Shown here: positions 2,894 through 36,133 of the stretch, in pieces
Layout: each line of letters begins with the position of its first letter
Numbering within the stretch: position 1 is the first letter of the stretch
Program-made: the position numbers and the translations under genes
Source of the DNA: Betaproteobacteria bacterium HGW-Betaproteobacteria-4
GTDB lineage: Bacteria; Pseudomonadota; Gammaproteobacteria; Burkholderiales; Rhodocyclaceae
Length of the DNA stretch: 36,203 nt
NCBI GenBank assembly: GCA_002840785.1
Contig: PHCH01000043.1
Span: 1 to 36,203, forward strand
Direction of reading: 5' to 3'
The notes under the pieces: model-generated
Seen by the model: only the letters and a program-made list of their open reading frames with translations
What the model was told of the DNA's origin: nothing
The model's database searches: none

Positions 2894-3945
2894 TGACCGT
2901 CGACGACTTCGACTTCCCTCTCCCGCCTGAACTGATTGCCCAGCACCCGGCCGCCGAACGCACCGGCAGCCGCCTGCTGCACGTCTGCGGCGAATGCTAC
3001 GGTCAACCGGAAATTGATCGCAAATTTGAAAACCTGCCGGAACTGCTGAAAGCCGGCGACCTGCTCGTTTTCAACGACACCCGCGTCATCAAGGCGCGCT
3101 TCTTCGGCCACAAGGAAACCGGCGGGCAGGTCGAAATCATGCTCGAACGCATCGTCGATGCGACGCATGCCATCTGCCAGATTCGCGCCAGCAAGGCGCC
3201 GAAGCCGGGCAGCAAGATGCGCCTGGGTGACGCCTTCGAGGTGTGCATGACCGGCCGCGCCGGCACCGATGGCGATTTTTTCGCCCTTGAACTGGTCGAA
3301 CCCGGCGATTTCTGGGAACTGGCCGAGCAGCACGGCAAGCTGCCGCTGCCGCCGTACATCGAGCACCCAGCCGAAGGCGCCGATGAAACGCGCTACCAGA
3401 CGGTCTATGCCCGGGAACCGGGCGCCGTCGCCGCGCCCACGGCCGGCCTGCATTTCGACGAAGCGATGCTGGCCAAGTTGCGAGCGCAAGGCGTCAACAC
3501 CGCCTTCCTGACCCTCCACGTCGGCGCCGGTACCTACCGGCCGATGCGCGTCGAGAAGATCGCCGACCACCGCATGCACAGTGAGCGTTTCGAGATTCCG
3601 CAGGCGACGGCCGAGGCCATCGCCGCCACCCGCGCCGCCGGTGGCCGGGTCATCGCCGTCGGCACGACCAGCCTGCGCGCCCTCGAATCGGCCGGCAACG
3701 ATGACGGCACGGTGCGCGTCGGCGCTGGCGAAACGAGCATTTTCATCACTCCCGGCTACCGCTTCAAGGTGGTCGACCGGCTGATCACCAATTTTCATCT
3801 GCCGAAATCGACGCTGCTCATGCTCGTTTCGGCCTTTGCCGGCTACGACAACATCCGCGCCGCCTACGCCCACGCCGTGGCCGAGCGCTACCGCTTCTTC
3901 AGCTATGGCGACGCCATGCTCCTGGAAAAAACCGATGCAATTTGA
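2890..3945 (+). CDS. queA: S-adenosylmethionine:tRNA ribosyltransferase-isomerase QueA
   Basis: Cytoplasmic enzyme of queuosine biosynthesis. It transfers and isomerises the ribosyl group of SAM onto preQ1 in tRNA, making epoxyqueuosine. Family motifs include the N-terminal [30 protein letters not shown], and [21 protein letters not shown]. Start choice is uncertain: GTG at 2890 (or TTG at 2893) gives the normal N terminus and 351 residues. The open frame continues back to a GTG at 2815, but that extension only translates the tRNA remnant. No proper ribosome-binding site precedes 2890, which fits a deletion at this junction. A stretch around residues 36-43 (ECYGQPEI) is encoded by a copy of the dispersed motif and is about two residues longer than I expect for the family. 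The 3' end overlaps tgt by 11 bp. Confidence 0.93.
2996..3013 (-). repeat. Dispersed motif copy A (inside queA)
   Basis: On the minus strand this is TTTCCGGTTGACCGTAGC. With one more base it gives a 19-base string identical to the intergenic copy near 28310. It is translated within queA as CYGQPE. Confidence 0.6.
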
Positions 3946-5044
3946 ACTCCTCAAGACCGATGGCGCCGCCCGCCGTGGCACGCTGACGCTGGCCCACGGC
4001 CAGATCCAGACGCCCGTCTTCATGCCGGTCGGCACTTACGGCACGGTCAAGGCCATGACGCCGCAATCGCTGCACGACATCGGCGCCCAGATCTGCCTTG
4101 GCAACACTTTCCACCTCTGGCTGCGGCCGGGGCTCGATGTCATCAAGGCGCACAACGGCCTGCACGACTTCATGAACTGGCAGAAGCCGATCCTCACCGA
4201 TTCGGGCGGCTTCCAGGTCTTCTCGCTCGGCGCCATGCGCAAAATCACCGAGGAAGGCGTCAAGTTCAGCTCACCGCACGATGGCGCCAAGCTCTTCCTG
4301 ACCCCGGAAATCTCGATGCAGATCCAGAAGGTGCTCAACTCCGACATCGTCATGATCTTCGACGAATGCACCCCCTACCCGGCGACGCACGAAGAAGCCG
4401 CCAAGTCGATGCGCATGAGCATGCGCTGGGCGCAGCGTTCGCGCGACGAACACAACAAGCTGGAAAACAGCAACGCGCTGTTCGGCATCGTCCAGGGCGG
4501 CATGTACGAAGACCTGCGCGACGAGTCGCTGGCCGGTCTCGACGACATCGGCTTCGACGGCATGGCCATCGGCGGGCTGTCGGTCGGCGAGCCGAAGGAA
4601 GACATGGTGCGCGTTCTCGCCCACGTCGCACCGCGCCTGCCGACGCACAAGCCGCGTTACCTGATGGGCGTCGGCACACCGGAAGACCTGGTGCGTTCGG
4701 TCAAGGCCGGCATCGACATGTTCGACTGCGTGATGCCGACACGCAACGCGCGCAACGGCCACCTGTTCACGCGCTTCGGCGACGTCAAGATCAAGAACGC
4801 CCGCTACAAGCTCGATACCGGCCCGCTCGACCCCAGCTGCACCTGCTACACCTGCACCCAGTTCAGCCGTTCCTATCTGCACCACCTCTTCCGCCACGGC
4901 GAAATCCTCGGCGGCATGCTCAACACCATCCACAACCTGCATTTCTATCAGGTCATCATGGCCGAAATGCGCGCGGCCATCGAGTCCGGAACCTTCACCG
5001 AGTGGTCGGACGAGTTTGTCCGCAAACGGTCATCCGGCGAGTGA
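3935..5044 (+). CDS. tgt: tRNA-guanine transglycosylase Tgt
   Basis: Exchanges guanine-34 for preQ1 in GUN-anticodon tRNAs, the step before QueA. The 369-residue protein shows the substrate-pocket motif [11 protein letters not shown], the [17 protein letters not shown] block with the nucleophilic aspartate, and the zinc-binding CTCYTC...H cluster near the C terminus. The start is the ATG at 3935, overlapping queA; the longer open frame upstream only covers the queA coding region. The queA-tgt-yajC-secD-secF order is the standard proteobacterial arrangement. Confidence 0.96.
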
Positions 5045-5088
5045 TAGAATCGCCCGTTCTGAATTTTTAGTTATCCGGAGTTACCACA

Positions 5089-5415
5089 ATGATTAGCCTT
5101 GCCCACGCCCAGACCGCTGCCGCCTCCGCCGACCCGACGGGTGGCCTGATGCAGATGCTGCCGATGATCCTCATGTTCGTCGTGCTGTGGTTCTTCATGA
5201 TTCGCCCGCAAATGAAAAAGGCCAAGGAACACAAGGCGCTGCTCGCCGCACTGGCCAAGGGCGACGAAGTGGTCACCCAGGGCGGCATTGTCGGCAAGGT
5301 GACCAAGGTCGGCGACAGCTACGTCACCGTCGAAATCGCCGAAGGCACCGAAGTCGTCGTGCAAAAGCCGTCCATCGGCCTGGTCCTGCCCAAGGGCACG
5401 CTGAAGTCGCTGTAA
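5089..5415 (+). CDS. yajC: Sec translocon accessory subunit YajC
   Basis: Small inner-membrane protein of the SecDF-YajC complex that assists SecYEG in protein export. The 108 residues have a single transmembrane segment (about residues 20-40, containing MLPMILMFVVLWFFMIRPQ) and a cytosolic domain with the family motif KGDEVVTQGGIVGKV. The ATG is preceded by CCGGAG. It lies 44 bp downstream of tgt and upstream of secD in the same direction. Confidence 0.96.
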   Translation: MISLAHAQTAAASADPTGGLMQMLPMILMFVVLWFFMIRPQMKKAKEHKALLAALAKGDEVVTQGGIVGKVTKVGDSYVTVEIAEGTEVVVQKPSIGLVLPKGTLKSL

Positions 5416-5423
5416 TCACCCCA

Positions 5424-5459
5424 AAAGGCGGCGTTAGTGGTCAAACACTCGCCGCCTTT
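5424..5459 (+). other. Stem-loop between yajC and secD
   Basis: The 10-bp arms AAAGGCGGCG and CGCCGCCTTT enclose a second 4-bp stem (AGTG/CACT) around a six-base loop. The hairpin is strong, but only three T residues follow the stem before ATCGC. It may be a weak intrinsic terminator or an RNA-processing site that sets the yajC:secD ratio. It ends 17 bp before the secD ATG and could also affect its translation. Confidence 0.5.
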
Positions 5460-5476
5460 ATCGCTTTGAAGCCGTC

Positions 5477-35798: not shown

Positions 35799-35808
35799 GG
35801 GGTTTGAA

Positions 35809-35834
35809 CCTGCGCTTATCCAGCGCGGGGTTTT
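35809..35834 (+). terminator. Probable terminator of the helicase gene
   Basis: CCTGCGCT and AGCGCGGG form an 8-bp stem (one G-T pair) with a five-base loop, followed by GTTTTCC, 11 bp past the stop codon. Confidence 0.55.
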
Positions 35835-35839
35835 CCTGT

Positions 35840-36090
35840 TAATTGGCTTGGGGTTCCGCCTTGCTGGCGGGCGTACTTTCTTTTGCTTCGCCAAAAGAAA
35901 GTAGCCAAAGAAAAGGCGACCCCAAGGTCGGCGCCCTTCGGTTTCCTTGCGCTACTCGGCAGGCCGGGCGGCTGCGGAACTCGGGCTACGCCCTCAAACA
36001 GTCCTCGCCGAAGGCCCCCGGCCCGCCTGCGTTGCTCAGCGCCTTCCAAGGGGCCCAAAGGCGTCCGAAATCAACCTGTGCGACCTGAAT
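35840..36090. repeat. Repeat-like non-coding region with hairpin
   Basis: No gene is convincing in the last 400 bases. This part holds a perfect 11-bp inverted repeat (ACTTTCTTTTG / CAAAAGAAAGT, 35875-35902). A GC-rich stretch follows whose spurious frame contains SFASPKESSQRKGDPKV, a string I recall from many proteobacterial intergenic repeats. I take it as a copy of a dispersed element of unknown function; I cannot show other copies in this window. Confidence 0.5.
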
Positions 36091-36099
36091 TGGCATTCC

Positions 36100-36133
36100 T
36101 ACGTTCAACCGGGAAAAACGGCCAAAAATGAAA
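36100..36133 (-). repeat. Dispersed motif copy G (near the right end)
   Basis: The plus strand TACGTTCAACCGGGAAAAA, followed by CGGCCAAAAATGAAA, is a degenerate copy. It resembles the extended version seen after secF and near 28310. Confidence 0.5.

Follow-up and report, generated by a model that had tools for sequence, protein, structure and literature searches.

Copies of the motif in the window and in the genome

The stretch analysed here (hereafter the window) is 36,203 nt of DNA, contig C65 of the draft genome of Betaproteobacteria bacterium HGW-Betaproteobacteria-4 (G000; 4.07 Mb in 174 contigs, 93% complete). A short motif recurs along it, inside genes such as queA and purB and in the gaps between others, and we propose below that it probably serves as a signal for DNA uptake. 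With at most two mismatches, the 13-mer GGTTGACCGTAGC has 12 matches in the window versus 0.64 expected (none of 100 shuffles reached 12), and the 19-mer TTTCCGGTTGACCGTAGCA, with at most three mismatches, has 9 versus 0.00 expected. As the initial annotation had claimed, the queA copy (2995-3013, minus) and the alaS-flanking copy (28306-28324, plus) are identical over 19 bases. A 44-position weight matrix retrieved 14 sites, i.e. all eleven copies of that annotation, the coordinates of which were off by a few bases at most, plus 11926-11969, 20168-20211 and 28881-28924. The sites, with their matrix scores and the Pfam matches of the genes concerned, are the following.

Site 1: 2990..3033, plus strand (signal orientation), core at 2995-3008; within queA (2815-3945, plus; PF02547); score 52.7.
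Site 2: 7356..7399, plus strand; covers the last bases of secD (5994-7385) as well as the interval up to secF (7398) (SecD/SecF Pfam matches); score 46.9.
Site 3: 8343..8386, plus strand; begins right after the secF stop codon; score 53.4.
Site 4: 11926..11969, plus strand; within a cytochrome b561-type gene (11565-12257, minus; PF01292); score 39.8.
Site 5: 14707..14750, plus strand; within the adenylosuccinate lyase gene, purB (13539-14906, minus; PF08328); score 40.2.
Site 6: 17790..17833, minus strand; within an open reading frame (ORF) without Pfam match (17426-18043, minus); score 46.8.
Site 7: 20168..20211, minus strand; within a heptosyltransferase-type gene (19727-20737, plus; PF01075); score 38.1.
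Site 8: 21936..21979, plus strand; within an alpha/beta hydrolase gene (20853-22136, plus; PF00561); score 31.3.
Site 9: 24737..24780, minus strand; within a predicted ORF (24554-24913, minus; crude gene call); score 31.0.
Site 10: 25467..25510, minus strand; within a predicted ORF (25286-25588, minus; crude gene call); score 26.0.
Site 11: 28286..28329, minus strand; the best match of the window, intergenic between alaS (25585-28206, minus; AlaS Pfam matches) and an ORF (28372-28821, minus); score 61.0.
Site 12: 28881..28924, minus strand; within a predicted ORF (28790-29533, minus; crude gene call); score 24.9.
Site 13: 31966..32009, minus strand; the weakest, within a sensor histidine kinase gene (31353-33899, plus; HATPase_c/HisKA); score 18.8.
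Site 14: 36092..36135, plus strand; outside called genes, past an ORF (34344-35798, plus) and close to the end of the window; score 54.1.

The motif is real and genome-wide. With at most one mismatch, the 13-mer occurs at 547 places in the whole of G000 (254 forward, 293 reverse) versus 8 for the reversed pattern, a genome-wide excess of the kind that the initial annotation had left to be counted. In a 770-kb sample of G000 (40 stretches plus the window), matrix sites of at least 12 bits numbered 191 (193 after the last refit) versus 0.5 in order-4 Markov sequence, so that their frequency is not explained by k-mer or codon composition. This corresponds to about one site per 4 kb and extrapolates to roughly 1,000 per genome; the top-ranked over-represented 8-, 10- and 12-mers of the sample are all words of the motif. 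A pattern restricted to its architecture (CGGTCRAC, W4 at +12 and W4 at +23, the dialect side being left free; hereafter the architecture pattern) had 791 matches in the whole genome versus 0 when reversed.

Anatomy of the unit

Aligned copies of the 770-kb sample carry information over ~40 bp. The consensus of the unit, written in the orientation of the Haemophilus signal, is ATTGCTACGGTCAACCGGAAAAAATGGCCAAAATTGAAATC (a composite): after a core come two A/T tracts separated by one helical turn, their centres lying about +14 and +24/25 from the C of the core; there is also a third short A/T block, and the whole measures ~40 bp. The copies on the two strands form one family. The A/T-rich side noticed by the initial annotation belongs to the element, since it contributes 18.7 of the 41.8 bits of the 44-position matrix; the extension to about 35 bp described there for several copies falls somewhat short of the unit.

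Core seeds were taken from 21 genomes of the same genus, most of them picked as motif-rich; the seeds fix the core only, and the core pattern was fitted for each genome. In 16 of the 21, A/T content peaks at +13..16 and at +24/25, 9-11 bp apart, with a GC-richer spacer between; five of these genomes (G051, G030, G032, G008 and G039) have a weak first peak (+0.05 to +0.19). The remaining five genomes, which are motif-poor, gave 2-10 seeds each, too few for the A/T peaks to be read.

Range and dialects

The genus searched, which we infer to be the Azonexus/Dechloromonas group, is that of the window genome. The exact 19-mer was found in at least 84 stretches, with titles naming Azonexus sp., Dechloromonas sp., Azonexaceae, Rhodocyclaceae or an unplaced beta- or gammaproteobacterium. 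Among 76 genomes of the genus, 40 had at least 89 matches to the architecture pattern, 9 had 18-42 and 27 had at most 14 (reversed pattern, 0-5). Outside the genus, each of 297 genomes of the order had at most 5 (reversed counts, up to 12), and the core pattern GTYGACCGYRGCA had at most 11 matches in each of 118 genomes of the family. Among the genomes searched, and with patterns that would miss other genera with different cores, the motif is confined to one genus.

Within the genus the core varies between clades. The first pattern used undercounted the other dialects (36 matches in G039 versus 295 with the architecture pattern), and G029, which has 8 architecture matches and is one of the 27 low genomes, yet has a dialect of its own, AATGCTACGGTC(A/G)GC, with the same tracts. 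The other dialects are as follows.

GCTACGGTCAAC: G000 and G052.
CCACGGTCAAC: G002.
CTGCGGTCAAC: G043.
TGCGGTCGAC/CAAC: G030, G032, G008, G020, G024, G015, G051 and G059.
TGCGGT(C/G)(A/G)AC: G014.
ACGGTCGAC: G031.
GCGGTCGAC: G039.

The inner core common to the dialects is (A/G)CGGT; the part shared by all is CGGT, preceded by G in some. Short perfect palindromes occur as cores in some relatives (ACGGTCGACCGT, 12 copies in the G031 sample; GCGGTCGACCGC, 10 copies in G051), with the A/T tracts on one side only. The likeness to palindromic elements drawn in the initial annotation suits these cores but not the whole unit of the G000 dialect.

AlaS identity to G000 is 91% for the motif-poor G018 and G016, a value between those of the motif-bearing G031 (93%) and of G030 and G032 (88%). 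Genomes with 18-42 matches hold full-looking copies (G048, G046). The placement of G018 and G016 and these full-looking copies fit a history of loss and decay.

Three other observations were made in these genomes. Apart from the dialect, words around ACCTGCCACA are in strong excess in the G029 stretches L294-L298; a protein rich in repeats may be their source. In the G047 stretches L177-L181, over-represented 12-mers correspond to different phases of GATCCGGTCGAC, with 7 copies of each, and have the appearance of a single tandem repeat. The AlaS match at G044:C1:4387144-4389761 consists of two pieces that overlap (186-873 and 1-197), which points to a frameshift or an assembly error.

Placement of the copies

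Intergenic positions are preferred: 69 of 193 sites are intergenic versus 16.3% of the sequence (p 6e-11). The gene caller is crude (it missed the ORF at 9342-11339), so this fraction is meaningful only relative to the 16.3% given by the same caller. Among the 122 sites within predicted genes, 52 share one strand/frame combination, but five of the six combinations are used and only the frame that reads TGA is empty (0/122). The signal orientation lies on the coding strand in 78 cases versus 44. The description in the initial annotation of copies on both strands, in different frames, in genes and between genes is therefore accurate, and the copies are not kept merely as protein sequence.

The two strands are used about equally. 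Architecture matches divide 426/365 in G000, a draft in which contig orientation is arbitrary, 364/376 in the single-contig genome G043 and 145/150 in G039, likewise a single contig. In G043, G030 and G032 both orientations are present in 14 of 15 sampled 20-kb stretches, and the stretch samples of G043 and G032 show a mild imbalance (18 to 8 each). A strand bias, raised by the initial annotation as something to look for and suggested by a plus-only run among the matches listed, was rejected on these whole counts and on the presence of both strands in the G030, G032 and G043 stretches.

Spacing is somewhat regular. With contig C40 left out, the gaps between sites have a coefficient of variation of 0.76 versus 0.97 ± 0.07 in random placements (0 of 2,000 simulations were as even), and only 6 gaps are under 500 bp versus 24. 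Two pairs of sites are less than 150 bp apart (one on the same strand, the other an overlapping opposite pair), and neither is a two-arm hairpin. The copies beside terminators mentioned in the initial annotation exist as a modest excess, and they are a minority: terminator-like hairpins are found close to 10 of the 69 intergenic sites (random intergenic positions, 5.6%; p 0.005) and to 5 of 124 genic ones (random, 1.9%), and 11 of 193 sites overlap such a hairpin. At site 3 of the window, the first A tract runs into a terminator-like GCCGCC/GGCGGC hairpin flanked by A/T runs.

One region of lower GC is nearly devoid of sites: C40:1-100000 of G000 (GC 52.8-59.4% per 20-kb stretch) has 2 where about 29 are predicted from the rest of the sample. 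The ten proteins scanned there include products of PQQ dehydrogenase, MFS, MMPL and branched-chain transporter genes. The exact 19-mer was also found in one contig of a viral collection (L299:9382-9400) from which records near the window genome may be excluded; this contig might stem from a phage or prophage whose host bears the motif.

Two further features of the window may be mentioned. The ORF missed by the codon-usage gene call (9342-11339, minus) encodes an autotransporter beta-domain (PF03797) and lies in a motif-free gap of ~3.5 kb; its codon usage may be foreign. A perfect two-copy tandem repeat of 31 bp (5950-6011) surrounds the secD start.

Origin of the copies

Each of the 193 sites, together with flanks of 300 bp, was searched for in 100-kb samples from 20 relatives that had not been selected for a motif at the site. 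A pair was counted when 40 bp aligned on both sides, which gave 65 ortholog pairs; 57 more did not cover the site. No deletion of 30 bp or more was found at the site in any of the 65, and 43 of them aligned without gap (318 of 389 at random positions). The power of the comparison was estimated by removing 41 bp at random positions: 248 of 515 pairs were bridged with a gap of at least 30 bp (389 pairs were covered when intact), 42 showed a smaller gap, 25 fell apart into the two flanks and in 200 a single flank remained aligned, so that an empty site would be seen in only about two thirds of comparable cases. In an earlier comparison, partly chosen for holding the 19-mer and made with records L111-L114 excluded from the database, 0 of 67 pairs had a deletion of at least 30 bp.

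In five motif-poor relatives (G048, G047, G044, G018 and G016), identity at the site is 0.19 ± 0.04 below that of the flanks (14 pairs), versus +0.01 ± 0.01 at random positions in the same genomes (84 pairs). Dialect changes are seen at orthologous sites. Because deletions of 30 bp or more are lacking in the 65 pairs and site identity is lower in the motif-poor relatives, these alignments better support an origin of the copies by substitution than one by insertion. The small insertable palindromic elements evoked in the initial annotation are not supported, at a detection power of about two thirds.

Comparison with known uptake signals

Neisseriaceae and Pasteurellaceae are the only families named, in the introduction of a 2025 paper (PMC12616744), as selecting their own DNA by short tags. 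The uptake signal sequence (USS) of Pasteurellaceae is given there as a Hin type, AAGTGCGGT, and an Apl type, ACAAGCGGT, with the extended forms AAAGTGCGGTCAATTTT and AACAAGCGGTCAAATTT; the inferred ancestral core is ANNNGCGGT (PMC1626085). The USS is described as a ...GCGGT core with two A/T segments on its 3' side, the centres of which are 12 positions apart, about a helical turn. It is further reported to show somewhat regular spacing, a non-coding preference and no significant orientation bias, and its copies to arise by mutation (PMC1626085). Within reading frames, one orientation of known uptake sequences is favoured (PMC2346458).

The Azonexus motif resembles the USS in several respects. 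GCGGT is the inner core of many Azonexus dialects, that of the window having ACGGT; the G043 dialect and the Hin type have the nine letters TGCGGTCAA in common, and the window dialect shares CGGTCAA with both extended types. By a rough count on this post hoc comparison, chance sharing among the dialects compared would be expected less than 1 time in 100 for nine letters and a few times in 100 for seven. The A/T tracts lie on the same side of the core, about a helical turn apart. Both signals have hundreds of copies near strand balance, a favoured genic orientation, a non-coding preference, somewhat regular spacing, dialects between clades and no empty sites seen. There are also differences. 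The first Azonexus tract is ~6 bp further from the core (our own measurement against the printed extended USS), the tracts are 9-11 bp apart instead of 12 positions and density is about one per 4 kb versus near one per kb (PMC1626085). Moreover, the Azonexus unit of ~40 bp has a third short A/T block, its copies form no inverted-pair terminators and its host is a betaproteobacterial genus.

The DNA uptake sequence (DUS) of Neisseriaceae, GCCGTCTGAA and its dialects, has a CTG inner core and often forms inverted terminator pairs (PMC3630211, PMC1626085). Like the Azonexus motif it belongs to betaproteobacteria, comes in dialects with a conserved inner core and a strong consensus, and has intragenic copies along with an intergenic preference. 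Its core, however, is unrelated to (A/G)CGGT and lacks flanking A/T tracts, and Azonexus copies do not form terminator pairs.

In titles and abstract openings we found no claim of an uptake sequence outside these two families, and no literature linking 'uptake sequence' with 'Dechloromonas' was found in a search that did not cover bioRxiv preprints and most subscription papers. An uptake sequence was sought in Veillonella, reportedly with no candidate of 10 bp or more (PMC5397411).

Weighing the proposed uptake signal against its rivals

We consider it probable that the motif serves a betaproteobacterium as a DNA uptake signal built like the USS, specific to one genus and split into dialects, a function read from sequence patterns, and that it most likely works like the Pasteurellaceae USS. 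The initial annotation had likened it to DNA uptake sequences, and this likeness extends to number, spacing, intergenic preference, substitution origin, dialects, strand balance and A/T tracts; it fails for terminator pairing and for the exact known cores.

A number of observations count against this interpretation. For the nine-letter core, 90 copies are exact and 214 have one mismatch, so that the rule of a strong consensus fails, chance matches weighing more at nine letters. The exact nine-letter USS cores AAGTGCGGT and ACAAGCGGT are not those found here (GCTACGGTCAACC, CTGCGGTCAACC, TGCGGTCGAC, AATGCTACGGTC and similar), and no two-arm hairpin built of motif copies was found in the sample; because this core and paired terminators are lacking, the motif is not classed as a Pasteurellaceae USS. 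Sites in the other 15, motif-rich, relatives show no extra conservation, being slightly less conserved than their flanks (-0.05 ± 0.02, 51 pairs, versus -0.01 at random, 305 pairs), a pattern to be expected from dialect change and turnover. Gaps occur more often at motif sites (22/65) than at random positions (71/389), and in one broken pair (m93 versus G030) the lengths differ by 40 bp within a longer stretch that does not align. The scarcity of sites in C40:1-100000 would follow for any slowly accumulating motif, and the foreign origin of that region is only a guess because the ten proteins scanned, of metabolic, transport or signalling types, included no mobile-element protein. The single viral contig is a weak result. 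Finally, the D. aromatica genome paper contains 0 occurrences of 'competence' or 'natural transformation', no literature search on transformation in these bacteria alone having been made.

The presence of competence machinery speaks for an uptake signal. Of 60 genomes of the genus, 56 have ComEC matches and the four others are all less than 90% complete; G000 has DprA and 18 N_methyl pilin matches. These proteins occur widely, none being specific to signal-bearing bacteria. Nor does the state of ComEC track motif number. It is split, partial or truncated in motif-rich (G002, G008, G019, G054) and motif-poor (G006, G018, G035, G044) genomes, and was discarded as a predictor. A candidate pilin on C106 fared no better as a receptor: matches at E<=1e-12 occur in 9 of 31 motif-rich versus 14 of 29 other genus genomes, a distribution that does not follow the motif. 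'FimT-like' is our own label for this protein, the PDB matches of which are other pilins, through the N-terminal part, none named FimT or ComP.

As to the interrupted comEC genes, the matches at G002:C33:109525-144033 and G044:C1:2218607-2251879 each fall into two pieces ~33 kb apart, the shorter of them weak (E 5e-4 and 8e-5), as would result from the insertion of an island or a prophage in comEC. Truncated or interrupted matches occur at G018:C8:1085724-1086371, G035:C1:1959178-1959913 and on G008:C10 and C17, where draft contig ends may contribute.

Could the copies instead be sites for an intracellular architectural or segregation protein (nucleoid-associated, macrodomain or condensin-loading) that bends DNA at the A/T tracts and requires sites at even distances along the chromosome? 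Even spacing, helically phased tracts and similar numbers on both strands would suit such a role, which we nevertheless hold unlikely. The 13-mer consensus, with 61 exact copies and 46 with one mismatch, exceeds in strength what is described as usual for sites of regulatory proteins (PMC1626085); a range from 0 to 791 copies and differing dialects within one genus would be odd for a housekeeping chromosome protein; and the combination of core and tracts is the anatomy reported for the Haemophilus USS (PMC12616744, PMC1626085). A recombination or replication-linked signal would likewise fit hundreds of copies genome-wide, restricted to one genus among the genomes searched, and the 18 to 8 imbalance of the G043 and G032 samples goes in that direction. 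Chi and KOPS are short and strand-biased, though, whereas the unit here spans 40 bp with A/T tracts and its orientations are balanced in whole counts and mixed in stretches; a strand-biased signal of this kind is very unlikely and was rejected.

BOX/RUP, REP and MITE repeats spread by insertion, and like them the motif has hundreds of dispersed copies. A small mobile or self-copying repeat would account for near-identical copies on both strands, some beside terminators, for the short palindromic cores of some dialects and for the excess of gaps, including the 40-bp difference of the broken pair. We give it almost no credence and rejected it: an empty site of at least 30 bp is absent from all 65 orthologous loci covered, where simulated ones were bridged in 248 versus 389 intact pairs, the biased earlier set agrees, copies leave conserved genes such as queA and purB unbroken, and dialects change at orthologous sites. 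It is hardly conceivable, lastly, that codon usage or a peptide common to many proteins produced the motif as a side effect. That most sites are genic, with 52 in a single strand/frame combination, speaks for such an artefact, but the spread over five combinations, the 69 non-coding sites and the Markov null led us to reject it.

If the motif is an uptake signal, it would label self-DNA for recognition at the cell surface in the course of natural transformation, the receptor being probably a type IV (minor) pilin or an associated protein. Contacts with this receptor would be made by the inner core (A/G)CGGT and the neighbouring letters specific to each dialect, while the two A/T tracts, on one face of the helix, may help the duplex to bend or kink at the outer-membrane pore. 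Preferential uptake and recombination of tagged fragments would let tags born by point mutation spread and persist, until several hundred to about 1,000 of them lie at even distances, mostly where non-coding DNA or permissive codons tolerate them. Recently acquired DNA would hold few tags. Where receptor specificity drifts, tags would follow, giving dialects; where uptake specificity is lost, they would decay, leaving genomes with a few dozen copies.

A bolder extension, which we put forward only tentatively, is that Azonexus and Pasteurellaceae share the recognition itself, inherited or transferred across the beta/gamma divide, with a related pilus-tip receptor that would read the (A/G)CGGT core and the two helically phased A/T tracts, the lineages being dialects of one ancient uptake code. 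The Pasteurellaceae receptor was described as unidentified before the prediction made in PMC12616744. Should the code be shared, the motif-rich, few-copy and motif-free species would reflect repeated losses and dialect switches.

Significance

Beside the Neisseriaceae and Pasteurellaceae (PMC12616744), a third lineage of bacteria may here be tagging its DNA so as to take up its own. If so, an environmental lineage would provide an independent comparison, in which the shared CGGT core and the helically spaced A/T tracts would point to physical needs of the uptake machine. With 40 motif-rich genomes beside few-copy and motif-free ones in one genus, a receptor can be sought by co-variation, and the same contrast allows the spread of such tags, their shifts of dialect and their decay to be tested directly. 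These environmental bacteria would then be naturally transformable, now or until recently, with an uptake biased towards DNA of their own kind.

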